Positions 44,271 through 61,400 of a stretch of DNA of 64,000 bases are shown here, piece by piece. Under the pieces are notes generated by a model that was not told where the DNA came from, searched no databases, and saw only the letters and a program-made list of their open reading frames with translations. The stretch covers positions 1 to 64,000 of the forward strand of contig JARKRC010000005.1 in assembly GCA_029974595.1 (NCBI GenBank), written 5' to 3'. Position 1 is the first letter of the stretch. Each line of letters begins with the position of its first letter. The position numbers and the translations under genes are program-made. This DNA is from Ereboglobus sp. GTDB lineage: Bacteria; Verrucomicrobiota; Verrucomicrobiia; Opitutales; Opitutaceae.

Positions 44271-46697
44271 TCAATCATCGCGGCGGAAGAGCGTCGTCAC
44301 CCATGCGCGCGTGCGGCGGGCCCGCGCCTCGGCGGACGCGAGTGCCTGCGAAAACCGCTCCTTCAGGCACAAACGCGCGAGCGCCCGATCAAAGAAGCGG
44401 GTCTCCATGTCCGCAGCGCTGGAACGCAGATAGAAGCTCAGGAGTCCGTCGCAGAACTCCCGCAGTCCACGCGTCGCCGGCGTGCGAAGCCTGCCCATCT
44501 GCCCACTGGCGCGGTGAAGCAGCCTTTGCACACCTCTCATGAGGGTATGAAGCTCGGTGCGCAGCTTTGCCGCGTCCTTGGGTTCCGCCGTCTGCAACGG
44601 CCCGATGAGCCGACGACGGATCAGGCGTTGCAAATCGGCGACAAACGCCTGCTCGATGGTCCTCTCGCGGTCGCCTCCATCGGCGGACGCGGGGGCCGGC
44701 ACCCACAGGACATCGACGAGCAGCCGCCGCTCGCCGCAGGGCACGCAAAGCTGCCGGTTCACTAGCCTTTCGAGCGGGTCGGGCGCCTGTTCGCGCAAGA
44801 CATTGCCGAGTGAGCGCAGCGGCTGGGCCAACGACAGGGGGAAGCGCGAGAACCGGTAGTTCGCCCGCGCGCCCGGGACCTTGCGATAAGCAACCATGTT
44901 GATCCGCAAAGCGGTGTCCGCGGAAAACGCCGCGCGTGCTTCTTCGAAAATGTCGAGGGGCATGGACGGCAGCCCGAGAAGCCGGTTGCCCAGCGTCCGG
45001 CAGGGCCAGCCGCCAGCGGCAAGGATCCGGACCACGACGTCGGCGCAATTGAAGGTGCTCCGGTTCCAGCGCAGCAACCCGCGGCGGTAGTGTTCCTCGA
45101 TCTCGAGCACGGCGTCGCGCATCGCTTTCATCTTCGCCGGAGGCACCGCCGCCACCCGCAGGCCGAGCGTCTCGCGGCCGTAGGCCATGCCGTAGGTGTT
45201 GGTGTGGACTTGGGAAAGGGACGGCCGGTCGATGCCGTAAAGGTAGTCAGCGAGGTGGATGTGCTGGAGGAATTTCGGATCCCGGTCCGGCTCGGCGATG
45301 TGGTTGGCGCTGTAAACCGTCGGCCCGATGCGGATCGCGATGTGGCCGAATGGATTCTTCCGGACGATGCGCTGGGGCGATTGCGCCGTCGAATAAGAGA
45401 GCAATAACTCGATGTCGGCCGGCGCCTCGTGATCAAGCCGGGCGAGCACCTCGCCGGCATCGGCCACCGGGGCTCCGTTTTCGGCGCCAAAGTCGTCAGG
45501 CAGGCCGGTCGGCGCGAACCGGTCATCCAAGGCGAAACCGACGATCTCCGAGGTTCTCAGATTCCGCCGGTAAGCCCGCTGCGCCGCCATCATGGCGGCA
45601 ATCGCCGCCCTGTCGTTCAGGAGCCGGCGTGCGATCCCGCCCACCGCTTGCGGGCTGGGCGCCAGCATGGCGAGGCCGGTTCGGCAGAACATCGCCGCGT
45701 TTTCGCGTTCATGGCCGCCGACCACATCGAGCAGCACGGTCGGCGTGCCAAGGGCGAACGCTTCGGAGGGCGTCAGCCCGCCGGGCTTGGTGATCAGGAG
45801 ATCGGCCGCGCCCATCAGTTTCATCAATTCGCTGTGGGGAACCAGTCCGAGCGCCCTCAGCGTCACGCGCGGCGGCAAGGCACCGGCAAGAGCGGAAAGT
45901 TGTGACTGCCGCGCCGCGTTGGTGCCGCAAACCACCAGGATTTGCAGGGGCGCTGTTCCGGCCGCGACAAGGCTTCTGATCATCACCGAGTGATCACCGA
46001 CCCCCTCCCGGCCTGTGGTGATCAGAACGGTTTCAACCTCGGGCAACAGGCCGTGGTCAGCGAACCGGCGGCGAAGCTTCTGCCGGTTCGCGTTCGGAAC
46101 ATCGACCGGCATGCCCGAAGTGATCACCTTGTCCGGCGGCACGCCGGCGTCCACCCAATGCGCTTCGAGGTCGGCGTGGGCGAGGAAGGTCCGGTCGATC
46201 CGCTTGGAAATGCGCGGGAAATATCCCCCGAAAAAGTCTGTGTGCAGCCAGCCGGTTCGGGTTTTCGTCAGGAGCCCGCGCTCGCGCAGCGTGCCCATGA
46301 GCTGGGCCGCACCGTAATGCGTGGCCAGAATCGCGTCAGGGGCCTCTCGTCGCAGGTAGGCGGTCACGCGCTCCTCGGAATAGTTGCAGGGCAAACTGGC
46401 CAGCGAGACGACACGGCTGCCGCGATGCTGAAAAGAGTTGAACAAGGCATCGAAGCTGTTGGGGAGATTGGTCGCCACAAACCAGTAAAGACGTTCGTCG
46501 AGCGCGCGCCAGGCCGCGTTCATGAATGTCCGGATATCCTTGAGGATCACCACGGCGTCGGGCGAGCGGCGGAGTATTTCCTTGCGGATCGTCCGGGCGG
46601 CGCTGACGTGGCCGTTGCCGATCGACGAATAGAAAATGATGATCTTTTTTTTCCGCGGCCGAGCCGCGCTTTGCAGGTCCGTTGTCGTCTCGTCCAT
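44271..46697 (-). CDS. MurG/MGDG-synthase-like glycosyltransferase fused to a papain-like domain
   Basis: 808 residues. Residues about 17-390 are a GT28-type glycosyltransferase of the MGDG-synthase kind: IIIFYSSIGNGHVSAARTI, TGWLHTDFFGGYF, GMPVDV, ITTGREGVGDHS, DLLITKPGGLTPSEAFALGT and VVGGHERENA. After a linker, residues about 425-600 look like a papain-like (NlpC/P60-superclass, DUF4105-like) domain, with His near 452 in FGHIAIRIG and Cys near 551 in STFNCADVV as candidate catalytic residues. The last 200 residues are Arg-rich and helical without known motif. No signal peptide is seen. The first domain probably makes glycolipids at the membrane; the role of the second is unknown. The fusion is unusual. 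Confidence 0.75.
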   Translation of the reverse strand: MDETTTDLQSAARPRKKKIIIFYSSIGNGHVSAARTIRKEILRRSPDAVVILKDIRTFMNAAWRALDERLYWFVATNLPNSFDALFNSFQHRGSRVVSLASLPCNYSEERVTAYLRREAPDAILATHYGAAQLMGTLRERGLLTKTRTGWLHTDFFGGYFPRISKRIDRTFLAHADLEAHWVDAGVPPDKVITSGMPVDVPNANRQKLRRRFADHGLLPEVETVLITTGREGVGDHSVMIRSLVAAGTAPLQILVVCGTNAARQSQLSALAGALPPRVTLRALGLVPHSELMKLMGAADLLITKPGGLTPSEAFALGTPTVLLDVVGGHERENAAMFCRTGLAMLAPSPQAVGGIARRLLNDRAAIAAMMAAQRAYRRNLRTSEIVGFALDDRFAPTGLPDDFGAENGAPVADAGEVLARLDHEAPADIELLLSYSTAQSPQRIVRKNPFGHIAIRIGPTVYSANHIAEPDRDPKFLQHIHLADYLYGIDRPSLSQVHTNTYGMAYGRETLGLRVAAVPPAKMKAMRDAVLEIEEHYRRGLLRWNRSTFNCADVVVRILAAGGWPCRTLGNRLLGLPSMPLDIFEEARAAFSADTALRINMVAYRKVPGARANYRFSRFPLSLAQPLRSLGNVLREQAPDPLERLVNRQLCVPCGERRLLVDVLWVPAPASADGGDRERTIEQAFVADLQRLIRRRLIGPLQTAEPKDAAKLRTELHTLMRGVQRLLHRASGQMGRLRTPATRGLREFCDGLLSFYLRSSAADMETRFFDRALARLCLKERFSQALASAEARARRTRAWVTTLFRRDD

Positions 46698-47250: not shown

Positions 47251-47593
47251 AAACATAAAGAAAGCAAATTATATAATCATTATTTCCTCTATAAAAAACT
47301 ATCTATTGGCAAGCCCACTCAGAGAGATCCGAGATATATTGCTTTTTTCATTTTTCATCGGGAGTCATCGCGGGTGCGAGCCATGTTTTTGCGGCGCGCG
47401 GCTTCAAGGTTGATGGTTTGAAGTGGCGGGGATGGGGACGGGCGGTATGGTGAATAGCAGGATGGACGCATTTGCTTGAGTTTGAAAATCTTGAATTCCT
47501 GTTCCCAAGCCTGCATTTGGCGTGTGTCTTTGCATCCGGTGGTCTTTCCTTGTGAAGGGCGGGAAAAAGGGCAGGAATCCACGCCAGTTTCCC
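47251..47593. other. Gene-free stretch, A+T-rich first half
   Basis: 343 bases. From 47253 to 47360 the sequence is much richer in A+T than its surroundings, which may mark the border where the gluQ gene was cut or hold the promoter for the following hydrolase. No repeat or element end was found. Confidence 0.4.
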
Positions 47594-50431
47594 ATGAGGT
47601 CTATTTTTCTCCCGACGTTTTTTGTTGTGCGAGTGTTTGTTTTGACGGTTGTGCTTGCGGCTGGCGCGCTGGCGGGCGATTTGCGTCCGTTGCCCTATGA
47701 GGGTGAAGGGCGCGAGGGGTGGTTTGCCGATCCGCTGGTGTGGCAGTTCGGTGAGGGCGGGATGGCGTGTCCGAATCCGAACGGGCGCGGGCTTGCCGTT
47801 TATAGGGCCGCGCCGCTGGCGGAGGTCGTGCATGTCGAGGCGGTTTTCACGCCTCGCGAGGCGGAGGCGGCGGACGGGTGGTGCATTGCCGGCGTCGCGC
47901 TTCTGGAGGACGAGCGGAATTACTGGCATCTGGCCCTCGTGCAAACGCCGGAATCCGCGGGCCGCCGTCCCGTGGTGGAGCTGTGCGAAATGCGCGACGG
48001 GAACTGGCTCGCGCAGAAAAACCTGAAGGTCGAGTTTGAGGAATGGGGCGGGCGAAAGTGGCGGTTTGGCAGTCCATGCCGGCTCGTGCTCAGCATGGAT
48101 CGCGCGGGGGTGACGGGCTCCATTTTTGCGGAGGATGGCGGCCTGATTTTGCGCAAGCGGTATGTGTTTTCGGCTGAGGCGGTCACGCGGGCGCGCCCGG
48201 CATTGCATATCGGAAAAATCACCGGCGAATATCGCGACGTGCGAGCGGCGTGGTCCTCACCCGTGGAGGAGCGGAGGGCGGAAATCGCGCCGTATGATGC
48301 GCCGGCGGCCACGCCGGAGATTCGCGACGCGGCGACCGGGTTTTTCCGCGTGACGCAAAAACCGGACGGACGCTGGTGGGCGATCGACCCGCTCGGGCGC
48401 GGTGTCGTTTTGCTGGGAGTCGATCATGTGTCGTTCAACGGGCATTGGTGCGAGGCGCTCGGCTACGCGCCGCACGGCAGGAAAAACGAAAAGAAATATC
48501 CCGATCGCGCCGCGTGGGAGGCGGAGACGCTGGGCCGTTTGAAACAGTGGGGATTTAATATGCTCGGAGCCGGTTGCGATCCGAAGCTCCGGCATCGCGG
48601 GCTGATTCATTGCGAGTTTCTCGGGATCGGCGACCGATTCGCGCTGATGGGCGACGCGTATGACATCACGCCGAACGAGCACCGGCCCTGCTCGGCGTTT
48701 CCCAATGTGTTTCATCCCGACTTCGAGACTTACGCGCGCCATGTCGCGCGCGCGAAATGCGAGCCCTCGCGCGACGATCCGTGGCTTTTCGGCTATTTCA
48801 TCGACAACGAACTGGCGTGGTGGGGCCGCGAATGGGGAAGCGACGCGGGGCTGTTCGACGCGGTGATGAAAAAGGGCGCGGCGCACATGGCGAAGGTCGC
48901 GCTGGCGGATTTTCTCACGGCGCGCTTCGGCAGCGTGGCGGCGCTCAACAAAACCTTCGGCCTCGGGCTGGCGCGTTTCGCGGATGTGCTCGCGCTCAAT
49001 GCGCTCCCGCACGCCACGGCGGAGCAGCGCGAGGTGAAGCGCGCGTTTCTGGCGTTCGTGGCGGAAAAATATTTCACGATCACCTCGCGCGCGATTCGCG
49101 AGGCCGACCCCAATCATCTGGTGCTGGGCGCGCGTTTCGCCGGAACCGACGGCACGCCGCCGGTCGTGTGGGAGGTGTCGGGCAGGCACTGCGACGTGGC
49201 GACGTTTAATTTTTATCCGATGGCGGATTTGGACGAGGGGCGCGTGTATTCGAGTTTCGGAAAAACGGGCGAACCCGTCGGCGCGCATTTCGCGACCTTC
49301 CACGATTACACAAAACGTCCGATGCTCATCACGGAGTGGTCGTTTCCCGCGCTCGACGCGGGCCTGCCGAGCGTGCACGGGGCGGGGCAGCGTTTTCGCA
49401 CGCAGGCGGAGCGCGCACAGGCGTCGGGGCTGTTTGCGCGGGCCATGCTGCGCATGCCGTTTCTGCTGGGCTACGATTATTTCATGTGGGTTGACGAGCC
49501 CGCGCTGGGCATCAGCAAGGCGTTTCCCGAGGACTCCAACTACGGGCTCATCAACGAGGCCGGCAAACCCTACGCCTTGCTTACGGAGATGTTTGCGGAA
49601 CTGCATCGCAACGCGGGCGCGCTGCGCTTCGAGCCGGAGCCGCCGCCGCGCAAAAATGCCGCAAGCCCCGTGCCCGCGTCCTCGCCCGCGCTGGAAGCGA
49701 TCCTCGCGGCCAGTCTGAAGCCGGGGCGCGCCTCCGAAACGCCGCGCGATTTTCCGAAACTCGACGGCTACGGCACGGGCAATCGCAGGATGGTGGAACG
49801 CGTGACGCTCGCCGACGACGGACAGGGCATCGGCAGCTATAACGCGATGCTTTGGACCATCGACACGGACGGGCGCAATCGCTGGACGGAAACAAGCCGG
49901 ACGTTGCGCTCCGACAGCCGCGTGTCGCACGACGGCGCGCTCGCCACGCTGACGCTTACCGGCGCAGGCAAGGCGGACGGATGCGAGTTCGAGGTGACGC
50001 ACCGCCTGTATCAACCCGCGGAACGCGAATGGTTTATCGCCGAGGCCGTGAGCGTGAGGAACACCGGGAAAACACCGCTACGGTTGAAGGGCATATATTT
50101 TATCTTGCGCAGCGATTTCAAGGAGACGCTTCCGAATCGTCCGCCGAACATCTGGAAGGAGCTGCCGTCGGGTTGCTGGCTGGACACGGCGCGAGGCCTG
50201 CATTTGGGCGCGGTCGCGCCGTGGAAGAGCCGGGTGCGGATTCACTATTGGCTGGATGCAGCGGGCGGACAGCATCCCGACGCGCGTCTGGAATTGCCGG
50301 AACCGGTGGACATCGCGCCCGGCGAGACATTCACCCCGGAGGAGCCCGCGTATGTGTTTTGCCTCGCGGGACGCGGCGGCGTGGAAGCGTGGCAGCGAAA
50401 GGTCGATGAAATCAGGCGGCTGCTGGAGTAG
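47594..50431 (+). CDS. Large secreted glycoside hydrolase of clan GH-A, GH50 agarase-like
   Basis: 945 residues from ATG 47594, which begins a signal peptide (FFVVRVFVLTVVLAAGALA). A beta-sandwich module lies at about 25-240. The TIM barrel at about 245-690 resembles GH50 beta-agarases and related GH-A enzymes: FFRVTQKPDGRWWAIDPLGR, VVLLGVDHVSFNG, LKQWGFNMLGAG, the acid/base Glu in FIDNELAWWG and the nucleophile Glu in LITEWSF. A C-terminal sandwich domain of about 230 residues follows. The substrate is unknown; galactans or other beta-linked polysaccharides fit the family. No transporter or regulator is adjacent, and it appears to be a single-gene unit. Confidence 0.78.
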   Translation: MRSIFLPTFFVVRVFVLTVVLAAGALAGDLRPLPYEGEGREGWFADPLVWQFGEGGMACPNPNGRGLAVYRAAPLAEVVHVEAVFTPREAEAADGWCIAGVALLEDERNYWHLALVQTPESAGRRPVVELCEMRDGNWLAQKNLKVEFEEWGGRKWRFGSPCRLVLSMDRAGVTGSIFAEDGGLILRKRYVFSAEAVTRARPALHIGKITGEYRDVRAAWSSPVEERRAEIAPYDAPAATPEIRDAATGFFRVTQKPDGRWWAIDPLGRGVVLLGVDHVSFNGHWCEALGYAPHGRKNEKKYPDRAAWEAETLGRLKQWGFNMLGAGCDPKLRHRGLIHCEFLGIGDRFALMGDAYDITPNEHRPCSAFPNVFHPDFETYARHVARAKCEPSRDDPWLFGYFIDNELAWWGREWGSDAGLFDAVMKKGAAHMAKVALADFLTARFGSVAALNKTFGLGLARFADVLALNALPHATAEQREVKRAFLAFVAEKYFTITSRAIREADPNHLVLGARFAGTDGTPPVVWEVSGRHCDVATFNFYPMADLDEGRVYSSFGKTGEPVGAHFATFHDYTKRPMLITEWSFPALDAGLPSVHGAGQRFRTQAERAQASGLFARAMLRMPFLLGYDYFMWVDEPALGISKAFPEDSNYGLINEAGKPYALLTEMFAELHRNAGALRFEPEPPPRKNAASPVPASSPALEAILAASLKPGRASETPRDFPKLDGYGTGNRRMVERVTLADDGQGIGSYNAMLWTIDTDGRNRWTETSRTLRSDSRVSHDGALATLTLTGAGKADGCEFEVTHRLYQPAEREWFIAEAVSVRNTGKTPLRLKGIYFILRSDFKETLPNRPPNIWKELPSGCWLDTARGLHLGAVAPWKSRVRIHYWLDAAGGQHPDARLELPEPVDIAPGETFTPEEPAYVFCLAGRGGVEAWQRKVDEIRRLLE

Positions 50432-50746: not shown

Positions 50747-51715
50747 ATGAACCAACCGCAGATCACCGCCGGGGTTTGGTCGGCCACGCCGACTCCATTC
50801 AATAATAATTGCCAGATTGACACCGTGTCGGTGGAAAAAATGGTTTTGCACCATCTCGACATGGGTGTGTCCGGGTTGATGCTTTGCGGAACATGCGGCG
50901 AGGGGGCGTGGTTGCGGGCGCGGGACCGTCGTGTGCTCGTGGAGGCAGCGGCAAAGGCCGCCGATGGGCGGTTGCGCGTGGCCGCGCAAGTGACCGACAA
51001 CTCCGCCGGGCGCGTGCTCGACAACATTGAGGAAGTTGCCGCAGCGGGGGCGGAAATCGCGGTTGTTGACGCGCCTTATTTTTTTATGAACGCGACCCCG
51101 GAGCGGAGATTCCATCACTACCGGGACATCATCCGCCGCAGTCCGCTGCCAATCGGATTGTATGACAGGGGCGCGGCCAATCCCAATTCAATACCCGGAG
51201 AATACCTGGCGGAGTTGCTCGCGGAGCCGAATGTGATCATGGTGAAGGACAGTTCGGGCAATCCGGAGCGCCGCGCGGCTTATGTCGAGGCGCGCAAGGC
51301 CAGACAGGGTTTGTTGCTGCTGAATGGAGACGAGTTCAAATGCGTTGATTATTTGCAGGCGGGCTACGACGGGTTGCTGCTTGGAGGCGGCGTCTTCAAC
51401 GCGCGCATCGCCTGGCAAATCGTCAACGCCGTGAGAGCGGGGAATATCGAGGAGGCCGATTTGCTGCAAAAACGAATGACCGATATCATGCTGCGTGTGT
51501 ATGGCGGGCCGAAGATTGAATGCTGGCTGACCGGTCTCAAGGAATTGCTTGTGCAGATGGGAGTTTTTGCCACCAACGCCAGCCTGCTCCAATATCCGCT
51601 TACGGACGAATGCCGCGCCCAAATCGCGGCGGCCGTGAGCGGCGCCGATGGAATGGGCTTCAAGGCTGATTTGCTGGGAGACTTTTCTCGGGAAGCGGCC
51701 CTGCCGGCAAAGTAA
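50747..51715 (+). CDS. DHDPS/N-acetylneuraminate-lyase family aldolase
   Basis: 322 residues forming the class I aldolase TIM barrel of this superfamily. Seen are the carboxylate-binding loop GTCGEG near 48-53, the catalytic Tyr near 139 (GLYDRG) and the Schiff-base Lys near 167 (IMVKDSSGN). The KDSSGN context is commoner in 2-keto-3-deoxy-sugar and related aldolases than in classical NanA, so the substrate is open. The nearby sialidase, NanM-like and MFS genes make a role in sialic acid cleavage plausible. First gene of a plus-strand trio with the two small cysteine proteins; 27 bases to the next start. Confidence 0.85.
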   Translation: MNQPQITAGVWSATPTPFNNNCQIDTVSVEKMVLHHLDMGVSGLMLCGTCGEGAWLRARDRRVLVEAAAKAADGRLRVAAQVTDNSAGRVLDNIEEVAAAGAEIAVVDAPYFFMNATPERRFHHYRDIIRRSPLPIGLYDRGAANPNSIPGEYLAELLAEPNVIMVKDSSGNPERRAAYVEARKARQGLLLLNGDEFKCVDYLQAGYDGLLLGGGVFNARIAWQIVNAVRAGNIEEADLLQKRMTDIMLRVYGGPKIECWLTGLKELLVQMGVFATNASLLQYPLTDECRAQIAAAVSGADGMGFKADLLGDFSREAALPAK

Positions 51716-51742
51716 TAATTGCGACAGCAGCTTGGATCCGCC

Positions 51743-52240
51743 ATGCAAGATCTGCCATATACTGACACCAAGCCCCAGGGGGCGCCGGATTTTTATTATG
51801 CGATTAATGCGACGTTTCGATTTATAATAAGCCGTATTGGCAGGGATGGGTGGATACGTTACTTGGAGGAGCTGGGGCACGGTTATTATGAACCGGTAAA
51901 TCGGATGTGGCGCGCCGGGGGGCTGCCGGCCGTGGCCGGATATTGGCGGGCGTTTTTCAAAGCGGAGCCGGGCGCGGAAGTCGCGGTGCATGAAGGGGCA
52001 GGACGGGTAGATATCCACGTGACGCGGTGCCCGGCAATCGCACATTTGCGCGCCGGTCATCGTGAAATTGTCAGGGAATATTGCCAGCATTGTTACCACT
52101 TGGGCAAGGCACGGGCGGAGGCTTTGGGATTAACGATGCGCTTGAGCGGTGGAAACGGAGAATGCCGCCATCTGTATGCGGTTCCATCTGAAACGACATT
52201 GCCGGAACAGGACATTAACGCCATAAGGGAGGTTACATAA
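51743..52240 (+). CDS. Small cysteine-motif protein 1, distantly like ATC hydrolases
   Basis: 165 residues from ATG 51743. Not firmly recognised. The C-terminal half has CP near residue 105, YCQHC some 20 residues on, and GNGECRH about 25 further. This spacing resembles the L-2-amino-thiazoline-4-carboxylate hydrolase-like family (PF14196 type), where conserved Cys and Asp lie in a small fold. No signal peptide. The next gene encodes a related protein with the same pattern and starts one base after this stop, so the two probably act together. Position after an aldolase suggests a role in handling its substrate or product. Confidence 0.6.
   Translation: MQDLPYTDTKPQGAPDFYYAINATFRFIISRIGRDGWIRYLEELGHGYYEPVNRMWRAGGLPAVAGYWRAFFKAEPGAEVAVHEGAGRVDIHVTRCPAIAHLRAGHREIVREYCQHCYHLGKARAEALGLTMRLSGGNGECRHLYAVPSETTLPEQDINAIREVT
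52228..52233 (+). promoter_or_regulatory. Strong ribosome binding site for the second cysteine protein
   Basis: GGGAGG lies 8 bases before the ATG at 52242 and inside the last codons of the preceding gene, which supports that start and separate efficient translation. Most genes in this window lack such a clear site. Confidence 0.7.
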
Positions 52241-52241
52241 T

Positions 52242-52829
52242 ATGATGGGATGTTATGATTTTTGCGCCCATTACGAATGGACATTCGCCTGGCTGGAGCG
52301 GATGGGCGGCCAGACGCTTTTGCGTGAATACTGGGATGCCTCGATCCATCGCGACAGCCAGCGGCATGCGCATGAGTTGATCGCGAAAGAAGGTTTTGAA
52401 GGCATGGCCAAATACTGGGGACACACACTCGCGGAAGAGTCGCCGGATGCAGGATATGCCGTTACCAGACTGCCCGGGGTGTTTCGGATTGATATGCACA
52501 ACTGTCCCTCCAAGGGCTTTTTATTGCGCAATGGCGTGCGACATCATAATGATTACTGCGATCATTGCATTGGATGGATAGGGCCGTTGATGAAAGAGAA
52601 TGGCTATGTGATAGACCATGAGCACAATCACGCCGGACAGTGCTGGTGGGAAATGCGTCATGCGCATGACGCATCTCATGCCACGCTTGGAGCGACGGCA
52701 AGCGGCCAGGACGTGCGGCTCCGCCCGGAATGGATGGGGCCGGACACGACGATTGACCGCTTCAACGGGGCAACCGGCCCGGAATTCAAGACGAGCGACC
52801 CGGAAATCGCGCTGCAAGCGCTTGATTGA
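52242..52829 (+). CDS. Small cysteine-motif protein 2, paralog of the preceding gene
   Basis: 195 residues from ATG 52242 (a second ATG follows at once). Related to the preceding protein in layout: an N-terminal helical part with aromatic residues, then IDMHNCPSKG near 88-97, YCDHCIGWIGP near 110 and GQCWWEMR about 28 later. The H-x-x-CP, YCxHC and late Cys positions match those of protein 1. A tail of about 55 residues without pattern follows (DVRLRPEWMGPDTTIDRF). Function not recognised; an ATC-hydrolase-like fold or a metal-binding site made by the Cys and His residues is a guess. End of the operon; a terminator follows. Confidence 0.6.
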   Translation: MMGCYDFCAHYEWTFAWLERMGGQTLLREYWDASIHRDSQRHAHELIAKEGFEGMAKYWGHTLAEESPDAGYAVTRLPGVFRIDMHNCPSKGFLLRNGVRHHNDYCDHCIGWIGPLMKENGYVIDHEHNHAGQCWWEMRHAHDASHATLGATASGQDVRLRPEWMGPDTTIDRFNGATGPEFKTSDPEIALQALD

Positions 52830-52889: not shown

Positions 52890-53996
52890 CTATGCGGGAG
52901 GCAGGCTGACCGTGCCCCCCTCGAAGTAATCGGGAAATATGAGCTGCGGCTCACGGGACAGCCCGCCCTGGCTGATAAGTTTTACAATAAACCGCGAAAG
53001 ACGGCGTTCAAACATGTCGGATTTGAATTGATAGTGCGCGATTGCCGGCTCCACAAAGCTGAATCGCAAGTCCTGGTCGCGCGCGATGAGCGACACTTTT
53101 TCAGGCACAGAGAGCCCGTGTTTCAGGAGGTAGATGATCACGGCAAACACATGCCAGGGCTTCGCGACGATCAACGCGGAGGGTGGGCGGTCGGAATTGA
53201 ACAGGGCGTCAAGTCTGGTCGTGATGTTGCGCGCGGTGCCTGTATGCCGGACAACAACCGGGTTTAATTCACCGGCGCCGTGGTGCGGCTTGAATGCTTC
53301 ATGAAACCCCTGCTCGCTGGCAAGTTCGCCGGCGATCCCGGAGTTCGGGAGCACCAGTGCGATATGCGTGTGTTTTTTCCGCAGCAGCACGCCGGCCGCG
53401 TGGCGGCAGACGGAACGATAATCGACGTCAAACGAGGGCAGGTTGACAGATGGATGGCAGGAGCCGAGCACCAGCGAGGGAATGGCATGCCTGGCAAACC
53501 ATTGCTGAATTTCCTTGTTCACCGAAACGAGCACGCAACACAGCACGTTGTTCTGCCGCAGAAACGTCTCGATGCTTCGGAGTTTTGCCGGGGCGCTGTG
53601 ATGCTGGCACACCAATGAAACCGTGCTGAAACCCTGCTCGACAAGATACTCGCGCATCCGGCTGATGCCGCGAAGGGAGACCGGGGGCATGGTCGAAATG
53701 GGTTCGTGGCTGATCAGGCCCACGACGCGGGTCTTGAAGTTTCGCGGCGGCTTGGACGCTTTCGACAGGCGGCTTCGCCGTCCGCGTTTTATATCGAGCA
53801 GCCCTTCTTTGCCGAGTTGATGCAAGGCCGTGCGAATGGTGGGGCGGCTCACCTGCAACATGTCACACAGACTCCGCTCGCTGGGCAGGTAATCCTGCCA
53901 CTCGCCGGTTTCCATGCGCTTGCGAATGTATGCGAAAACCTGGGAGGTGAGCGAAATGCGTTTTGGGATGTCGGTGGTTTTGAATTCGCCGGGCAT
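52890..53996 (-). CDS. GntR/LacI hybrid transcriptional regulator of the sialidase region
   Basis: 368 residues. Winged helix at about 12-80 (VFAYIRKRMETGEWQDYLPS, LCDMLQVSRPTIRTALHQLG). A LacI-type sensor follows, less conserved than usual (VVGLISHEPISTMPPVSLRG, LVSVNKEIQQWFARHAIPSL, HAAGVLLRKKHTHIALVLPN). The layout is as for the regulator at the start of the window. It stands last in the minus-strand series after the NanM-like gene, separated by 88 bases, and faces the aldolase operon tail to tail. It likely controls one or both of these; no operator could be matched. Confidence 0.85.
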   Translation of the reverse strand: MPGEFKTTDIPKRISLTSQVFAYIRKRMETGEWQDYLPSERSLCDMLQVSRPTIRTALHQLGKEGLLDIKRGRRSRLSKASKPPRNFKTRVVGLISHEPISTMPPVSLRGISRMREYLVEQGFSTVSLVCQHHSAPAKLRSIETFLRQNNVLCCVLVSVNKEIQQWFARHAIPSLVLGSCHPSVNLPSFDVDYRSVCRHAAGVLLRKKHTHIALVLPNSGIAGELASEQGFHEAFKPHHGAGELNPVVVRHTGTARNITTRLDALFNSDRPPSALIVAKPWHVFAVIIYLLKHGLSVPEKVSLIARDQDLRFSFVEPAIAHYQFKSDMFERRLSRFIVKLISQGGLSREPQLIFPDYFEGGTVSLPPA

Positions 53997-54084: not shown

Positions 54085-55194
54085 TCATCTGGCTTCCGCA
54101 TCCTGAACGCGCACGGACCAGACTTCGGGCGACCTGACGCCGGAGCTCCGCTCGCCCGAGGGCAGCACCCACGCGCCCTGCCACACGGTTGTGTTCACAC
54201 ACACGCGGGCCACGGGAGTCTGTCCGCCAGCGCGCCAGGCATTCAGTTTTGACGAGTAAATCTGGATGCGCCTCGGAACCTGATGGAAATCCTGCGGCCT
54301 GCCTCCTCCCTGTCCATCAACGCCGCCAAAAACAAGCACGTCGCCATTGCGCGAAACGGGCGCGGGCGAGGCTGCCGCCACGGCGGGATGCGGCAAGTCG
54401 GGCAATCTTGTCCAGCCTGCCGTCGGGGAATATTTATAGGCATCCGACAAGTATATTGGTTTGGACGCTCCCTCTTCGGCTGGCGCGCGACCCAATCCGG
54501 TGAAAAGATAAAAATCATTTTGATGCGCAGCCGCGACCGCTTGCGAGCGTCCCGGTCCCGGCCAGGGCTCCAGCGTTTTCCAGCCCGCAGCAATATCATT
54601 CAAATCCAACGCATAAAACTCGCGGAGCGGATCTGCCGCCCCGCCGCAGGCAATGCCTCCGGCCACATATATAATATTCCCGACCCGGGCCCCCGCCGCC
54701 ATGGCGACCGGCTTGGGAAGGGAGGGATACGGCTCAATCACCACATTGCCGCCCTCAAGCCGAAGCAGGAAAACCGATTCGTAATGACGCGTTTCGTCAC
54801 TGCCTCCGATGCACAAAACGCCCTGCTCGATGGATACGGAGACCCCGTATGCCAGCGGCCCGGGCAGCCGTCCCGCGAGTCTCCATTGTTCCGCATTCGG
54901 CTCCAGCACGAAAACGCGGTCATCCCATCGCTTCTTTCCGCCCTCCCATAATTGCCTGTCAGGGAAATTTGCCCCGCCGGCCACAATCAACGCCTCCCCG
55001 GCTGTTCCGACAAAGGATGACGCAAAGCCACAGGGATCGGGGAGCGGCGGCAACTGCCGCCAGTCCAACAAAGGGATGGGTGAGGCATTCATGAGCGCAG
55101 AAATTGTCATGGCATTTATTACACAAAGGAGGAGCAGGAATTTTTTATATAATGGCATCGTGCGAATCGGCCGCTTATAATATAAAATCGTCAT
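54085..55194 (-). CDS. nanM: Kelch-type cyclically permuted mutarotase (NanM-like)
   Basis: 369 residues. The ATG at 55194 directly follows the permease stop and has AAAGG six bases before it, so it is preferred; an ATG at 55158 is an alternative. Both precede a hydrophobic signal segment (KKFLLLLCVINAMTISAL). Kelch repeats form a six-bladed propeller: FASSFVGTAGEALIVAGGAN, GVSVSIEQGVLCIGGS, GARVGNIIYVAGG, AVAAAHQNDFYLFTGL and VSRNGDVLVFGGVDG. FPDRQLWEGGKKRWDD is typical of the permuted mutarotases associated with sialic acid use, which speed conversion of alpha- to beta-N-acetylneuraminate in the periplasm. Translation is coupled to the MFS gene. Confidence 0.87.
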   Translation of the reverse strand: MTILYYKRPIRTMPLYKKFLLLLCVINAMTISALMNASPIPLLDWRQLPPLPDPCGFASSFVGTAGEALIVAGGANFPDRQLWEGGKKRWDDRVFVLEPNAEQWRLAGRLPGPLAYGVSVSIEQGVLCIGGSDETRHYESVFLLRLEGGNVVIEPYPSLPKPVAMAAGARVGNIIYVAGGIACGGAADPLREFYALDLNDIAAGWKTLEPWPGPGRSQAVAAAHQNDFYLFTGLGRAPAEEGASKPIYLSDAYKYSPTAGWTRLPDLPHPAVAAASPAPVSRNGDVLVFGGVDGQGGGRPQDFHQVPRRIQIYSSKLNAWRAGGQTPVARVCVNTTVWQGAWVLPSGERSSGVRSPEVWSVRVQDAEAR

Positions 55195-56421
55195 CTATTG
55201 CCTTTGGGCCGCCGGTTTGAGAAACGCCAGAATCAAAAATGACAAAAAGCAACAGGCTCCGCCTATCTGGAAAACCAGCGACACGCTCACATTTGCGTCG
55301 CGCAGGAAGCCGCCCAGCAGGTTGGCCAGCCCGCCCACGGTGCATGCGCTGAGGTTCAGGATGCCGTAGCCTGTCGCCCGGTAGCGTTTGTCCACAATCA
55401 AGGTGAGGATTGGCATCATATTCGCGTCGGTGAAAGCCTTGGTCAGGCCGAAAAATACAATTCCCGCTAGCGCGACCCAAAGCGCATTGGCCAGCGAAGT
55501 GATTATTATGCAAGGCGCGGCGACGATCAGGCCGATCATCACGACAAATAGGGGGCCGCGCGGGTGGCTGCGGCTCCAGCGATCCGCCCATGCGCCGCCG
55601 ATCAACACTCCTGCCAATGACGCCACTTGGAGGTATGCTGTGGCCGACATTCCGGCTTCGCTCTGGCTGAGATGGAATTGTTCCTTCAAGTAAGTGGGCA
55701 TCCATCCCACCACCGACCACACGCAAACGGCCAGCGATCCCCAATAGGCCAGCGTCATCAGGAATGCCTTGTTTCCCAGCAAAATCCGCAACCCATCCAG
55801 CAGCCGGACGCGAGGCTCCCCGGTTTCTGCCGAGGCGGTTCGCGCTCCGGGGCGGTCGCGCAGAAAAAACATTAACACCAAGGCGACGGCGATGCCGATA
55901 ATGCCAAAGAATTTGAAAGCGTAGCTCCAGTCATGATGCTCCGCCATCATGCCGCCGAGCCCGCCCATCGCACTGCCCACCATCAATCCGGTCATGTGGA
56001 TGCCGTTGGCGATGGAGCGCGTTGTCGTGCGGTGATAATCCGAGATCAGCGCCAGCGCCGCCGGTATGTAACATGCCTCGCTTATGCCCATCAATGCGCG
56101 GGTTGCCAGGAGCTGTTCGTAGGTTTTCGAATATGCGGTGAGCCATGTGACAATCGACCACACCATGAAACTCACCACGATCACCATGCTCCGGTTCAGC
56201 CTGTCCGCAAGATAGCCGGCCAGCGGGCTGAACGCCGCGTAAACCCACAGAAACAATGTCGTGAGCAGGCCGAATTGCACATCACTCATGGGAATCGCCT
56301 CCACCAATGAACTGCGCATGGTCATGATCATCATGCGATCAATATAGTTCAGGCATCCCACGAGCCAGAGCAGGCCGACCATCAGCCATGCCCTGCCGCG
56401 ATATTCTGTTTCGGGTTTCAT
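55195..56421 (-). CDS. MFS permease, probably for sialic acid or a related acid sugar
   Basis: 408 residues from ATG 56421. About 12 membrane segments, with ACS/phthalate-permease-like marks: NYIDRMMIMTMRSSL in helix 1, FLWVYAAFSPLAGYLADRLN in the 2-3 region, GISEACYIPAALALISDYHR, and GPLFVVMIGLIV in the second half. Members of this branch import organic and sugar acids with protons. Between the sialidase and the mutarotase gene, N-acetylneuraminate is the likely cargo, but this is by context. 79 bases separate it from the sialidase. Confidence 0.87.
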   Translation of the reverse strand: MKPETEYRGRAWLMVGLLWLVGCLNYIDRMMIMTMRSSLVEAIPMSDVQFGLLTTLFLWVYAAFSPLAGYLADRLNRSMVIVVSFMVWSIVTWLTAYSKTYEQLLATRALMGISEACYIPAALALISDYHRTTTRSIANGIHMTGLMVGSAMGGLGGMMAEHHDWSYAFKFFGIIGIAVALVLMFFLRDRPGARTASAETGEPRVRLLDGLRILLGNKAFLMTLAYWGSLAVCVWSVVGWMPTYLKEQFHLSQSEAGMSATAYLQVASLAGVLIGGAWADRWSRSHPRGPLFVVMIGLIVAAPCIIITSLANALWVALAGIVFFGLTKAFTDANMMPILTLIVDKRYRATGYGILNLSACTVGGLANLLGGFLRDANVSVSLVFQIGGACCFLSFLILAFLKPAAQRQ

Positions 56422-56500
56422 TATATTACTGCTGTTTGAAAAAGAGAGCGCCGGCAACGTGCCGGAATACGGCGAAGCGGTTTCTCCTTATTGCCCGGTG

Positions 56501-58429
56501 CTACTTGGCATTTTTCGGCGGCGTTTCCGGCGGCGCGGTCATGATCCATTCGAGCGGGAAGCGCGCAAATGTCAGTGTTGAATAAAGGTAAGTGTCACCG
56601 GTTTCGTAGAGGATGCCGATGCTGCCGTCCTTGAGCACGGTCATGCACGAGTAAGCGCTCGGGCGCGGGTCGATCCGTCGTCCGGCGTTCCACGTCCGCC
56701 CGCCGTCGGTGCTGGCGCGCACGGTCATGTTGCGGCGCTGGTTGGGCATGGCGGGGTTTGAGAAGAGCAGCGCGCCTGACGGATGCGAGATGAGGCTGGC
56801 CTGGCAGCGCGGGTCGGGCAGGTCGAGCCACGGTTCGCCCCATTTGCCGTTGGCGAGGTCGCCGCTCCATTCGTAGCGCGCCCAGATGCGCTGGCCCTTG
56901 ACTCGCGTTTGCGGGCGCAATGAGAGCAGCAGCGAACCGTCGTCGAGTTGGGCGACTTGCGATTCGCCGGTCCATGCGAAGTCGGGCGACACGGCGATGG
57001 AGGAAGGTTTCCATGTCACGCCGCCGTGGGAGCTCCAGATGAAAAAGGAGCAGATGCGGTTGTTTTCATCCCAGCATTGCGCCGGAAAAACCAGCGTGCC
57101 GTCGCGCAACTGGATGCCCTTGCCGGGGCCCGCGAAACAATTGGCCCAGACGGGATTTTTCACTTGCGGCGTGATGTCGATCGGCGCGGACCATGTCAGG
57201 CCGTCGTCGGTGCTTTTGGTGAGGACCAATTGCACGGTTTTGTCAGGCGAAACGACATTGCCGACCCACGAACGGGTGCCGGGGGACCACATGGCGATGA
57301 CAAAAATCGCGCCGGTCTTTTCGTCAACGAGAACGGCGGGGTCGCCGACGCCGTTGCCATTTTTACCGGGAGCGTCGACGGGGAAATCAATGATGCGCGT
57401 CATCGGGCCCCATGTCGCGCCGTTGTCGGTGCTGCGCATCATGCCCACGTCGATGTCGCCGGGCAGGTCGGCGCTCCTGGCGTTGCGCGCATCGAAGACG
57501 GCGACGAGCGTGCCCTTGGGCGTGGTGGCGAGGCCGGGGATGCGGTAGGTGTGCACGCCGTCATCGCGCTGCTTGCGCACAACCGAGCGAAACATTCCGG
57601 GCGGATCGGGCTGTATGACCTCGGCGATTTGCTCCTTCGCGTCAATCGGCTCGCCCCAACGGTCGCGGAGCACGCCGGCGATTTTTGCAAACTCCTGTTC
57701 GCCGACGGCGCGGGAAATGACCAGCATCTCGGCCACGTCGCCCTTGAGTCCGTGCATGACGCCGTGTCCTCCGGTTGCGCCGATGCACAGGCCGCCTTGC
57801 GGAGGGCCGGCAAACGCCTTCGCCGTGGCGGAGCGCAGGCCATTGGCGTCAATAATCATGTGGCGGACGGTGAGGGCGCGGGTGGCGTCGCGGTGGAATA
57901 CAAATGCATGCGCCTGCCAGATGCCGGCGGTGGCGTCGAGCGTGGGACGGTCGGCTTTGTTTGCGTTGGAGATGGGCCGTGGCTGCGCGCCGGCCTGCCA
58001 TGAGCCGCCGCGGATTTGCGCGCGTGCGAGTCCGTTTTGCGTGGAGCCGTCGAAGAGGAATCCGCTGCCGGTGTCCGCGAGGCGCACGTAGGCGATGATG
58101 GTGCGATTGCCCCCGAGCCTGCCCCATGCCGCCGGCGTGGCGATGGCCCACATCTTGGATTTTCCGTCGAAGCGCGCGACAGTGGTGACGCCGCGCGGTG
58201 TCTCCACGCGCACCGCCCTGGGGTTGCCGACGGAACTGGTGATGTGGCGGCGATCGGCGTTGTCGTTTTTCCATCCGACAATCGTGGGGCCGTCCAGTTG
58301 GAGTCCCCTGTCGGCGCGATACCATGCGTAAATGGTGTCATCGCCGCCGGCCTGCGCCGTGGCGTTTGGGAGTGAAAGGGCGCCGGCGAATATAATCGCG
58401 AGCAGGATGCGTGCTGTTATTATTCTCAT
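56501..58429 (-). CDS. Secreted sialidase (GH33) with N-terminal LamG-type domain
   Basis: 642 residues from ATG 58429, with signal peptide (ARILLAIIFAGALSLPNATA). A lectin-like sandwich at about 25-250 precedes the six-bladed sialidase propeller. YRIP near 295-298 holds the first triad Arg. Asp boxes are STDNGATW, STDDGLTW, SSHGGVTW (degenerate) and STDGGRTW. The Glu base is probably in TGESQVAQLDDGS, and the Tyr/Glu pair near ILYETGDTYLYS. It would release terminal sialic acids from host or dietary glycans outside or in the periplasm. It follows the TonB receptor gene by 35 bases and precedes the MFS gene. Confidence 0.9.
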   Translation of the reverse strand: MRIITARILLAIIFAGALSLPNATAQAGGDDTIYAWYRADRGLQLDGPTIVGWKNDNADRRHITSSVGNPRAVRVETPRGVTTVARFDGKSKMWAIATPAAWGRLGGNRTIIAYVRLADTGSGFLFDGSTQNGLARAQIRGGSWQAGAQPRPISNANKADRPTLDATAGIWQAHAFVFHRDATRALTVRHMIIDANGLRSATAKAFAGPPQGGLCIGATGGHGVMHGLKGDVAEMLVISRAVGEQEFAKIAGVLRDRWGEPIDAKEQIAEVIQPDPPGMFRSVVRKQRDDGVHTYRIPGLATTPKGTLVAVFDARNARSADLPGDIDVGMMRSTDNGATWGPMTRIIDFPVDAPGKNGNGVGDPAVLVDEKTGAIFVIAMWSPGTRSWVGNVVSPDKTVQLVLTKSTDDGLTWSAPIDITPQVKNPVWANCFAGPGKGIQLRDGTLVFPAQCWDENNRICSFFIWSSHGGVTWKPSSIAVSPDFAWTGESQVAQLDDGSLLLSLRPQTRVKGQRIWARYEWSGDLANGKWGEPWLDLPDPRCQASLISHPSGALLFSNPAMPNQRRNMTVRASTDGGRTWNAGRRIDPRPSAYSCMTVLKDGSIGILYETGDTYLYSTLTFARFPLEWIMTAPPETPPKNAK

Positions 58430-58464
58430 GGTGAAAAAGTGAATGCTAAGGATTTGTATCCGGG

Positions 58465-61400
58465 TCAAAACGCGCCGCGGATGCCAAAGTTTATGACGCG
58501 GTCGTGGAGCACGGACTGGGCGAGGCGCGCTTTGCTGTAGGTATAATACCTTACGGGCTGGTCGGTCAGGTTGTCGAAGTCGCAGAAGAAGGTGATGCGC
58601 CGGCGGACCATCTCGTAGTTGAGGCTCAGGTTCCAGACGGTGCGCGAATAGGCGTGGAGCGCGAGCGTGGGATCGGAGGCATAGGTGTGGAGGTAGGAAG
58701 AGCGATGGTTGGCCATGAGGCGGACCGAGAATTTCCGGTAGCCGTAGTTGACGACAAAGTTGGCGGAGCGCGGCACGAAGCCCGCGAGGGAGGTGATGGT
58801 GGCACCCGAGCTGGTCGAGCCGTAGTCGCCCTCGGTTTTCAAGGTGGTGTAGTTTGCGCTGACGGTCAGGCCGCGCAGCAGCCCGGGCAGGAAGGTGAGC
58901 CGCTGACGCCAGCTCAGCTCCCAGCCTTCGAGTTTGGCGTCGCCGCCGTTGAACTCCGAAACGATGTCATAGCCGGCGTATTCGTAGTAGGGGCCGTCCG
59001 GATCGTCGGGCACGACGCCGCCGCGGTCGCGCACGATGAACTTCGAAAGATTTTTCCTGAAGTAGCCGGCGGAAAGCTGTCCGAGGGGATTGTAATAGTA
59101 TTCGAGCATGAGGTCCCAGTTTTCCGATTGCTGCGGCTTGAGGCCGGGGTTGTTCACGGAGAGTATCATGTCGGCGTTGTTGACGGAGGTGCTGGGGAAC
59201 AGGTCGGCGAAGCGCGGACGGCCGATGCTGTTTGACCAGCTAAGCCGGGCGATGAGGCTTTTTGTTATTGTATATTTGAGGTGAACGCTGGGAAGCCAGT
59301 GCGTGTAGTCGCTTTCAAGCGAAACGGGGTTGTTATAATCGCGCTTGGCGGCGGCCACGGGATCGGCGGCGCGCTCGGCGGTGGTGGAGACGATGCGCGA
59401 TAGCACACGCCCTTGCGAGCGAATCCCGGTATGCTCCATGCGCGCGCCGGCCAGCGCGAAGAACCGTCCGGCGCGGAACTGGGTTTGCGCGTAGGCGGCG
59501 GTAATGTTTTCGGTGACCTTGCGCTCGCCGGAATATGCATTGGATACATTGTAATAAATATTCTCCGCCCAGCGGCCGGGGTTGTCATAAATATCAGCGG
59601 CGGCATCGGCAACGCTGACCCAAGGGATGCGTTTGGCCGGAGGGGATCGCAGATCGGTGGAGGTGACAATGGCGGGATCGCTCAACTGCGCATAGAGTCC
59701 CTCGGCATTGCTTGTCCACCGGCGGCTGTTGACCTTGGTCTGGCCGTTTTGCCTGTTCCGGTAATAAATGCCCGTTTTGAGCAGCGGTCTGAGCGGCAGG
59801 GGAAGGGAGTATTTGGCGTTGATGCCGGCGTTGAAGTTCTTGTCGAATCTGACATAATCCCGCGCAGTGAGCTGGAGCGCGGTGTAGGAGGCCGGGTCGT
59901 AGATGCTGGATGCGCCGCCGAACTGGGTGAAAGAAGGGCGGAGCATGGACTCGCGCGTGTCGAGCCGCCACCACGGGTCGCTCACGCTGGCGAAAAAAAC
60001 GCCGCCGGCGGGCCGGTCGCCGCTCATCGGGGTGTTATGGTCGGAGACGCTGCGGAAATAACCGATTGTATAATCAATATTCAAAGGCCCGTCGCGGTGC
60101 TCGCCGCCAAGGGTGATTTGCCGTTCGCGGGCATCCCATGCGTAGATGTAGGATTGCGCGATGAGGCGGGTGGAGTTGCGACCGGCGGCGGTCGGTCCCC
60201 AGACGCTGGTGACGCCGTCTGTGTAGCCGGGCAGGATGGAGCCGGTGCCGGCGGGTTGTCCATTGGCATTGAGCGTGGCGGTGTGCTGTGTGTTTTCGGA
60301 CACGGTGGCGCGCATCTGGCGGGCGGTGTGCCACGGATCGGCGGAGTCGGCATAGAGAAGGCTCGCCCAAAACTTCGTGCCGGGAGACAGCTTGTATTCG
60401 AGCTTGAGCGATGCCTGCATCTGTTTGCGGTTGTTATACACATCCTCGGCCCAATAGTCCCACACGAAGGCCGGAGATTCCGTTGTGCGTTCGTAGGAGC
60501 GGCGTGTGCGATAATAGCTGGAGGCCCTTTCATTATAAAGAAGGTTGAGGCTGACGCCGAGGTTGGGCTTGCCGGAGCCGATGCTGAATACATCGTTGTA
60601 GGTGATGTTGAACAAGGGGTGGATCAGACGCCCGTCGCGCATCGGAGTATGATCGTAAAACGGCGCGGCATAGCGCGCGCCGAGACGATAATAGACTCCG
60701 CGCCTGCCCGCGCTGAGCGGGCCGCGGGTTTTTATGTTCACTGCGCCGCCCAATCCGTCGGCGGGCATGTCGGGCGTGTGCGATTTGACGACCTCGATTT
60801 CCTCGAAAAGCGCGCCGGAGAGCATGTCGGTGCGCGGCACGCGGCGTTCCGTGTAGGTGTTGCCCTGCTGCACGCCGTCCACGGTCATGCTGTTGAATTC
60901 GCCGATGATGCCGCGAATGGTGACGCTCTCCACTTCGCCGTGGTCGCCCATTTCGGCAACGATGCCGGGCAGGCGCATGAGCAGCTCGCCCGTGTTTTCG
61001 TTTGTCATGCGCCCGAGGGCGTCGATCGCGATGACATTGGTGACATTGGCGGCGTTGCGCTGGCGGGCCATGGATGCCGCGTCGCCCTCGCGCTCGCCGG
61101 TCACGACAAACTTTTCCAGCGTGACGATCTCGGGGCGCAGATTGATGGAGAGGCTCGTTTCCGCGCCCGGACGCACCTCGACGGTTTTCCGCTGCGTCCG
61201 GGAGCCGGTGTAGTTGAAAACCAGCTCGCATGTTCCGGCGGGCAGCCGGTCGAAGCGAAACTGGCCTTCGCGGTCGGTGACGGTGGTCATGCTTGTGCCG
61301 GCAATCTCGACCTGCACCGCGTAAAGATACACTCCGCTTTCGGAGTCGCTGACCTGGCCGGTGACGGAGCCGGTTGCGGCCTGCGCGCGCAGCACGGGAC

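Follow-up and report, generated by a model that had tools for sequence, protein, structure and literature searches.

In a stretch of 64,000 nucleotides from an Ereboglobus genome (Verrucomicrobiota, Opitutaceae; assembly GCA_029974595.1, contig JARKRC010000005.1, positions 1 to 64,000), hereafter the window, a gene for an aldolase of the dihydrodipicolinate synthase (DHDPS) superfamily, ALD, is followed by genes for two small and mutually related cysteine proteins, S1 and S2 (Table 1). The three genes very likely constitute a catabolic module, which probably provides an undescribed enzyme step in the breakdown of acidic sugars such as sialic acid. Taken as a whole, our preferred explanation, in which S1 and S2 form a metal-binding enzyme (S1S2) operating in an acidic-sugar route, carries a probability of roughly one in three. 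The family is nearly always paired, tied to an aldolase and scattered through one phylum, and as such marks a missing enzyme step; a description of the module was not found in the literature searched, which was largely without subscription papers. Genomes and loci are denoted by G and L numbers, G000 being the window's own genome (96% complete).

A recurrent pair of small cysteine proteins

S1 and S2 share a CP motif, a YCxHC motif and a late cysteine at nearly equal spacing, corresponding to C96, C114, H116, C117 and C141 in S1 and to C88, C106, H108, C109 and C134 in S2, and the stop codon of S1 is separated from the ATG of S2 by a single base (52241). Coordinates and alignments thus confirm the original prediction of two related small cysteine proteins encoded one base apart after an aldolase. 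In the five relatives compared for each protein, conservation is higher at codon positions 1 and 2 than at position 3, both for S1 (0.73-0.80 versus 0.36-0.42) and for S2 (0.66-0.83 versus 0.42-0.52), which argues that these frames are not open by chance. The open frame of S1 reaches back to a TTG codon at 51719 (173 aa), but its start is probably the ATG at 51743, preferred because conservation among 20 aligned sequences begins at LPYxDTKP; the start codons of the S1 relatives in this alignment were our own choice. S2 is present as a single copy in the assembly, where its sole other match is S1 (E 0.1).

S2 was detected in 12 of 95 genomes, the window's own included, and on nine named genome contigs (six with Opitutaceae in the title), while a profile search across the phylum recovered it in at least 53 of 387 genomes, again counting G000. 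The latter search, with three candidates scored in each genome, overlooked G239 and G253, both of which have the pair; its raw count was 54, the match in G028 having come from NanM columns that the profile carried from a fused protein at L026, and this match was not counted. A plasmid collection gave no match to near or distant S2. The 76 loci collected were reduced to 75 distinct ones by dropping L069, a duplicate of L023, and comprise 28 loci of a near clade and 47 of a distant clade, near S2 sequences being 52-74% identical to that of the window (21 relatives aligned). Many of the genomes are metagenome-assembled genomes (MAGs) or drafts, and gene calls are imperfect, codon-based callers missing the window's own S1 and S2 and the pair at L034. 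Adjacency counts were taken from profile searches of all frames, with neighbour profiles built from the genes of these same loci; a first open-reading-frame caller was discarded, as it chose antisense frames in GC-rich DNA.

The pairing of S1 with S2 recurs in most of this collection: S1 is encoded no more than 1.3 kb from S2 in 66 of the 75 loci, or 66 of the 69 with at least 0.5 kb of upstream sequence. The two genes overlap in 51 of 63 measured pairs, by exactly 4 nt in 42 of them. The S1 and S2 distance matrices correlate with r 0.90 over 66 loci (0 of 1000 permutations), and with r 0.62 and 0.81 within the near and distant clades, respectively, a correlation to which shared ancestry alone contributes. 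Several loci depart from the usual arrangement. At L032 (G024:C219), about 100 bases lie between the aldolase and S2, with no S1, the pair of that genome being on another contig (L029), and at L072 S2 stands without S1, with a different gene upstream. Three small genes follow the aldolase in a row at L087, L102 and L117, in the order S2-S1-S2 by profile. At L026 (10001-11620), in a single MAG, S2 and a NanM-like kelch domain are fused in one 540-aa frame, with no signal-like stretch seen between the two parts.

Conservation of the cysteines, on which the original prediction depended, is strongest in S2, where all 75 loci retain C88, C106, H108, C109 and E66, and C134 is retained in all 74 having a residue at that position. 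Near-clade S2 has 42 invariant columns among 22 sequences, cysteines, histidines and glutamate included; H10 and the histidines of HEHNH (DHEHNH) are a near-clade feature, found in at most 1 of the 47 distant loci. Near-clade S1 keeps the cysteine set, with H116 in 24 of 25 sequences, and distant-clade S1 keeps C96 in 38, C114 in 30 and C141 in 30 of 41. From these patterns we infer that S2 would be the catalytic or metal subunit and S1 its partner. S1S2 is probably a two-subunit metal-type protein, close to the metal-dependent two-subunit enzyme that had been proposed.

The aldolase and its link to the pair

ALD carries the motifs GTCGEGPW, YDRG, KDSS, GDEF and CWLxGxK and belongs to the DHDPS superfamily by its PF00701 score (129 bits, cut-off 22.1), and it retains counterparts of Lys165 and Tyr137 of E. 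coli NanA. The earlier designation as NAL/DHDPS-type therefore stands at the superfamily level, whereas scores fall below the equivalog cut-offs of both NanA (NF003164, 80.5 versus 281; TIGR00683, 70.5 versus 382) and DapA (TIGR00674, 101.9 versus 206.15). Relative to NanA, Thr48 is replaced by Cys, Asp191 by Glu, Glu192 by Phe and Ser208 by Gly, positions that we take to have roles in NanA. An identity of ALD as plain NanA was rejected on the NCBIfam cut-offs and these residues. With a profile of the ALD subfamily, 28 frames of the loci score 310-495 bits, followed by a 164-aa fragment at L097 (162 bits) and then by everything else at 155 bits or less, E. coli NanA reaching 98 bits; on this basis we class ALD as a subfamily of its own within the DHDPS superfamily.

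The pairing with an aldolase on which the original prediction depended recurs in other genomes. Of 66 loci with at least 1.6 kb of upstream sequence, 41 have a DHDPS-type aldolase no more than 3 kb from S2, in 37 cases upstream of S2 and on its strand; at L075 the aldolase is on the opposite strand and faces the pair. A within-locus control, in which 16 neighbour families were compared between the zones within 3 kb and beyond 5 kb (matches at 3-5 kb left out, p values uncorrected), gave 44 aldolase matches near S2 and 1 far from it (p 8e-10). Across the 387 genomes, the window's own included, the ALD subfamily was found in 33, S2 in 53 and both in 26, the co-occurrence giving a Fisher p of 1.2e-19 that is not corrected for phylogeny and rests on lower-bound counts, the aldolase search having scored five candidates per genome. 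Two of the seven ALD-subfamily genomes lacking an S2 call do have the pair beside the aldolase (L131, L132). The association extends to other aldolases: some distant loci have a different DHDPS protein near the pair, and an HpcH/HpaI aldolase lies within 5 kb of it in 7 of 75 loci (control p 0.13, not significant), while 25 of the 66 loci have no DHDPS-type aldolase within 3 kb. Judged from these families, the aldolase beside the pair, where present, is of the pyruvate type and is no single particular aldolase.

Fold and distant relations of S1 and S2

By profile search, neither protein has a Pfam family of its own. S1 matches PF14196, the L-2-amino-thiazoline-4-carboxylate (ATC) hydrolase family, at 15.1 bits (E 0.041), below the gathering cut-off of 28.1, and has a similarly weak match to ADH_N; S2 of the window has no PF14196 match. 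Such sub-threshold PF14196 matches recur in 6 of 20 S1, 14 of 22 S2 and 5 of 24 distant members, with best E values of 0.013, 0.0026 and 0.00094, respectively, which imply scores below 28.1. Matches of S1 to SnoaL_2 (11 of 20, best E 0.0009) were set aside, as we take SnoaL to have another fold than the S1 group. Searched against solved structures, the S2 sequence gave no match and an S1 profile gave only weak ones (ARF-like GTPases and others, best E 0.029).

AlphaFold models of S1 and S2 reached pLDDT values of 92.3 and 83.1. The S1 model resembles TRAPP Bet3 (1sz7; Z 8.2, root-mean-square deviation 3.8, 131 residues aligned) and, at Z of about 6.5, the phenol sensors PoxR and MopR, so a TRAPP-Bet3/V4R-like fold of S1 is likely. 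The S2 model, compared with the same kinds of chain, gave at best Z 5.4 (root-mean-square deviation 4.6, 130 aligned), and a Z below 8 may reflect a mere common arrangement; Foldseek E values exceeded 0.001 throughout for both models, the first row for S1 being a designed protein. The cysteine cluster of PoxR/MopR presumably binds zinc. HNOB, V4R and ATC hydrolase domains are grouped together, with a conserved cysteine common to PoxR/MopR, in the accessible text of PMC5847659, and this grouping with a shared cysteine cluster fits the fold resemblance of S1. We tentatively place S1S2, with a putative role, in the V4R/ATC-hydrolase group, a relation that rests on weak scores together with PMC5847659; the likeness to thiazoline-carboxylate hydrolases claimed earlier holds as a distant one, expressed in sub-threshold matches and a related V4R/TRAPP-type fold of S1. 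Nothing was found that points to the thiohemiketal adduct also proposed at that time.

Sialate setting and other neighbours

In the window, the pair stands beside a sialidase locus, as first described: the neighbouring GH33-like protein matches 4fj6, a named GH33 candidate sialidase, over residues 297-627 (E 6.5e-64), its best match among solved-structure sequences is 6mnj, named Hz136 (E 8.3e-67), and of 78 distinct such sequences matched at E of 1e-6 or less, most of the 60 listed are named sialidase or neuraminidase. A NanM-family protein and an MFS transporter complete the locus. Across the collection, 15 of the 75 loci have a BNR protein and 17 a regulator of the window's type (REG) at 6.5 kb or less from S2, the regulator without significant enrichment (control p 0.21). 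Among the 16 families of the within-locus control, SDR (p 0.013) and AKR (p 0.038) dehydrogenases are weakly enriched near the pair; kelch (p 0.088), SSS, MFS and TonB families are not. Individual loci add an alpha-L-fucosidase between ALD and S1S2 (L142), a rhamnosidase-cluster protein directly after S2 (L077) and an acetamidase/formamidase-family protein adjoining the aldolase (L075), and a few have amidohydrolase, creatininase or acetamidase-family neighbours.

The absence of nanE, nanK, nagA and nagB noted in the original prediction holds for the locus. Genome-wide it holds for NanE (PF04131), which was not found in the G000 assembly although an E. coli control was positive, and which occurs in 1 of 31 pair genomes, G000 included; nanK/ROK kinases and nagA were not searched for. 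It does not hold for NagB, which G000 carries elsewhere at 260 bits (cut-off 236.9) within a 700-aa frame; NagB exceeds the cut-off in 27 of 29 genomes. The argument that the route is non-phosphorylative because NagB is missing was rejected. Proteins of the AGE epimerase family (PF07221), which holds other epimerases too, occur in 26 of the 31 genomes, including G000 (contig C14), and of the places listed for this family, that of G238 alone is 5 kb or less from a pair. On G000:C14 (L144, 10715-12761), a contig other than that of the window, an HpcH aldolase (65% identical to that of G028) adjoins the AGE-family epimerase. According to the accessible part of PMC10570557, non-human environments hold on average about 21 times as many sialidase genes as nanE genes.

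An alternative gene set in relatives without a detected pair

Five genomes have the ALD subfamily and no pair found, three of which (G022, G028 and G344) belong to the window's family. These three have the same regulator and aldolase together with an SDR, an AspA-like N-deacylase, DUF4432 and a threonine-synthase-like pyridoxal phosphate (PLP) enzyme, and the G028 cluster further holds BNR proteins, NanM, MFS and HpcH. Compared with L028, which has S1S2, the G028 locus (L129) has an HpcH 94%, a NanM 81% and an MFS transporter 73% identical, the difference lying in the alternative set. An orthologue of the PLP enzyme (at least 65% identity) is present in 3 of 3 alternative-set genomes and in none of 26 S2 genomes (best match 33%), and the AspA-like deacylase in 3 of 3 and in 1 of 26 (G024, 52%; G081 and G437 reach only 27-32%). 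In G024 the deacylase is accompanied by SDR, HpcH and DUF4432, with an MR_MLE-family gene in the PLP position. G022 and G028 were also negative in the 95-genome S2 search, of which G344 was not part.

A marine bacterium converts N-acetylglucosaminate to 2-keto-3-deoxygluconate by deacetylation (OngB) and PLP-dependent deamination (OngC), as given in the accessible text of PMC9537276. By analogy, the G028 cluster may take N-acetylneuraminate (Neu5Ac) through N-acetylmannosamine (ManNAc), N-acetylmannosaminate, mannosaminate and 2-keto-3-deoxygluconate to pyruvate and glyceraldehyde, which makes an oxidative sialate route possible for clusters of this type. On this view, S1S2 would supply the step or steps leading to the 2-keto-3-deoxy acid. 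One paper on acetic acid bacteria reportedly uses the term 'mannosaminate'. Literature searches for a non-phosphorylative sialate route returned papers on YhcH and on chitin oxidation, and those on sialate in Verrucomicrobia led to PMC2693436, which deals with the distribution of NanA.

Proposed function and competing explanations

In our preferred reading, S1 and S2 would be paralogous subunits, made by coupled translation, of one metal-binding (Cys4/His) enzyme of the V4R/HNOB/ATC-hydrolase fold group, working alongside a pyruvate-type aldolase to break down acidic sugars by a largely non-phosphorylative route; the metal, the heteromeric assembly, the reaction and the substrate are all predicted. 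An aldonate or 2-acetamido-aldonate would be converted to a 2-keto-3-deoxy acid by elimination, and a DHDPS-type or HpcH/HpaI aldolase would then cleave this product to pyruvate and an aldehyde. For the window, sialidase, NanM and transporter would deliver Neu5Ac, which ALD would cleave to ManNAc and pyruvate; ManNAc would be oxidised to N-acetylmannosaminate, on which S1S2 and then a second aldolase would act. The assignment of S1S2 to a metal-type elimination making the 2-keto-3-deoxy acid is tentative and less likely than not. The fucosidase, rhamnosidase-cluster, AKR and SDR neighbours suggest the same step for deoxyhexonates, and the acetamidase/formamidase-family gene of L075 would fit release of acetamide. 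A strictly sialate-specific role was weakened by the within-locus control, and the range of the step probably extends beyond sialic acid. Of the new step in sugar-acid or sialic acid use put forward originally, a role in sugar-acid use is plausible; its sialate part lacks family-wide sialidase enrichment. It is doubtful, though conceivable, that S1S2 and the AspA-like deacylase with the PLP lyase are two interchangeable modules of an undescribed oxidative, non-phosphorylative sialate and deoxyhexose route in some Verrucomicrobiota, each making 2-keto-3-deoxygluconate from the N-acetylmannosaminate that oxidation of ManNAc yields; S1S2 would then be an aldonate/acetamido-aldonate eliminase of a new class, with two V4R-like subunits.

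A number of observations weigh against this interpretation. Near the pair the BNR/sialidase family is not enriched, with 6 matches in the inner zone (up to 3 kb) and 8 in the outer one (past 5 kb; p 0.92); at a distance of 4.6 kb, the sialidase of the window lies between the zones and enters neither count. The operon of the window contains no SDR, HpcH or lactonase gene. With NagB and an AGE-family epimerase in G000, a Bacteroides-like phosphorylative route may operate there. S1 was not found by S2 at L032, L072 and L111 despite sufficient upstream sequence, H116 and C117 are absent from distant-clade S1 in 41 of 41 cases, and at 13 of 25 near-clade loci a DHDPS aldolase is missing from the 3 kb around S2. 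The exchange with the alternative set is not clean: L028 lacks all five alternative-set genes and not just the two that are compared with S1S2, G024 combines S2 with the AspA-like gene and DUF4432, and in G305 and G351, which have the aldolase, both S1S2 and the alternative set are missing from the 15 kb covered. Moreover, that G022, G028 and G344 lack the pair was concluded from the search of three candidates per genome described above. MR_MLE proteins occur in 29 of 31 pair genomes, though G023 alone has one at a distance of about 8 kb or less from the pair; as these proteins are present in most genomes, they were set aside as evidence, being uninformative except for this distance.

Since the tightest linkage of S1S2 is with the aldolase, the pair might instead act as a metal-dependent anomerase and open the substrate ring for the aldolase, as the unrelated YhcH/NanQ does for E. 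coli NanA; YhcH is a metalloprotein of Neu5Ac operons that gives the open form to the aldolase, as the available portion of PMC8141875 describes. The in-frame fusion of S2 to a NanM-like domain at L026 is in keeping with such a role, as is the presence of DUF4432 in the alternative set. We take DUF4432 to be a mutarotase-fold family. This role is nonetheless unlikely, as NanM already accompanies S1S2 in the window, L021 and L028, DUF4432 accompanies S2 in G024, and the pair also occurs near HpcH/HpaI aldolases and rhamnosidase-cluster and fucosidase genes; 2-keto-3-deoxyxylonate is, moreover, mostly open and not aided by anomerases (PMC8141875, same portion). Distinctly unlikely is a C-N bond hydrolase, that is, an N-deacetylase or an opener of a cyclic amide or lactone, comparable to its distant relative L-ATC hydrolase, which opens a thiazoline ring. 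The PF14196 matches, the AspA-like N-deacylase in loci without a detected pair, and the amidohydrolase, creatininase and acetamidase-family neighbours agree with it, but G024 has both the deacylase and S1S2, deacetylation is not needed at the fucosidase and rhamnosidase loci, and an amino-aldonate lyase would still be required, the PLP orthologue being undetected in 26 of 26 S2 genomes.

Of similarly low probability is a non-catalytic function, in which S1 and S2 would be V4R-like sensor or stabilising subunits regulating the aldolase: the fold matches of S1 do include sensors and TRAPP Bet3, and distant-clade S1 has lost part of its Cys/His set, yet the invariant cysteines, histidines and glutamate of near-clade S2 are more enzyme-like, and the pair often stands without an adjoining DHDPS aldolase. 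That the pair is a peripheral accessory of one existing pathway only, with Neu5Ac passing through NanA, AGE epimerase, hexokinase and NagA/NagB, is very unlikely. The NagB of G000, its AGE-family protein by an HpcH aldolase, and the GH33-type sialidase and NanM beside the pair would suit this pathway; the lack of family-wide sialidase enrichment, the rarity of NanE in pair genomes and the distance of nearly all listed AGE places from the pair speak against it. The S1S2 module and the alternative set of close relatives are directly testable candidates for sialate use without NanE.

Locus layout

The regulator, NanM-family protein, MFS transporter and sialidase lie on the minus strand, divergent from ALD-S1-S2. 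The N-terminus of the NanM-family protein is signal-like by eye, and the protein scores below NCBIfam subfamily cut-offs. Upstream of the aldolase, positions 47522-50428 (+) encode a 969-aa protein that lacks any Pfam match and is similar to beta-agarases of known structure (5z6p, E 4.6e-30), enzymes of family GH50. At 44271-46697 (-) lies an 808-aa protein that by eye is glycosyltransferase-like, with an added C-terminal part.

Table 1. Genes of the ALD-S1-S2 locus in the window and the alternative cluster of a relative.
Feature	Position	Strand	Evidence
ALD, DHDPS-superfamily class I aldolase, 322 aa	50747..51715	+	PF00701 129 bits, cut-off 22.1
S1, small Cys protein, putative first subunit, 165 aa from the probable ATG start	51743..52240	+	20-sequence alignment (window's included), AlphaFold
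S2, small Cys protein, putative second subunit, 195 aa	52242..52829	+	22-sequence alignment (window's included), 75-locus residue counts, AlphaFold
REG, regulator with GntR-type helix-turn-helix and LacI-type sensor, recurrent neighbour	52890..53996	-	PF00392, PF13377
NanM-family kelch protein (sialate mutarotase type)	54085..55194	-	PF24996 NANM 151.5 bits, cut-off 45
MFS transporter	55195..56457	-	PF07690 216 bits
GH33-type sialidase with N-terminal extra part	56501..58468	-	PF13088; PDB 4fj6 match
Alternative cluster: PLP enzyme, DUF4432, AspA-like deacylase, SDR, aldolase, regulator, HpcH	L129 3891-11968 (G028)		also L128, L130; HpcH in L129

Comparison with known systems

The locus resembles the sialate systems of E. 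coli (NanA-NanK-NanE) and Bacteroides (NanA-AGE-hexokinase) in its sialidase, NanM, transporter and aldolase, and differs from them in that NanE was not found in the genome and that S1S2 and, in some relatives, HpcH and SDR genes are part of the locus. Like NanA and DapA, ALD retains the Schiff-base lysine and catalytic tyrosine of the DHDPS superfamily; from these two enzymes it is set apart as a distinct subfamily by the equivalog cut-offs and by the changed residues at NanA Thr48, Asp191, Glu192 and Ser208. YhcH/NanQ is likewise a small metalloprotein of sialate operons serving the aldolase (PMC8141875, available portion), whereas S1S2 would have two subunits and is also found near non-sialate genes; YhcH/NanQ (DUF386) is not among the Pfam matches of S1 and S2 at E of 10 or less, a range in which HMMER filters drop most matches above 0.1.

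The OngB/OngC pathway, as far as the accessible text of PMC9537276 sets it out, would share with the proposed route the end product 2-keto-3-deoxygluconate formed from an N-acetyl-aldonate, and the three relatives without a detected pair have an analogous deacylase and PLP enzyme. OngB is a relative of the D-aminoacylases and OngC a putative D-amino-acid deaminase, both of other families than the enzymes found here, and S1S2 is like neither; that route phosphorylates 2-keto-3-deoxygluconate, whereas here an HpcH/HpaI aldolase is present. With the PF14196/V4R/HNOB group, finally, S1 and S2 have in common their length class, weak profile matches, a probably similar fold of S1 and the possession of a conserved cysteine cluster. 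They differ in lying below the PF14196 gathering cut-off in the window, in occurring nearly always as an S1-S2 pair, often by an aldolase, and in the CP, YCxHC and late-cysteine set (four Cys and a His) of S2. ATC hydrolase opens a thiazoline ring at its C-S bond, according to the accessible part of PMC5847659. If our reading is correct, S1S2 would be a catalytic, two-subunit newcomer to a fold group in which the solved members listed are mainly sensors and trafficking proteins.

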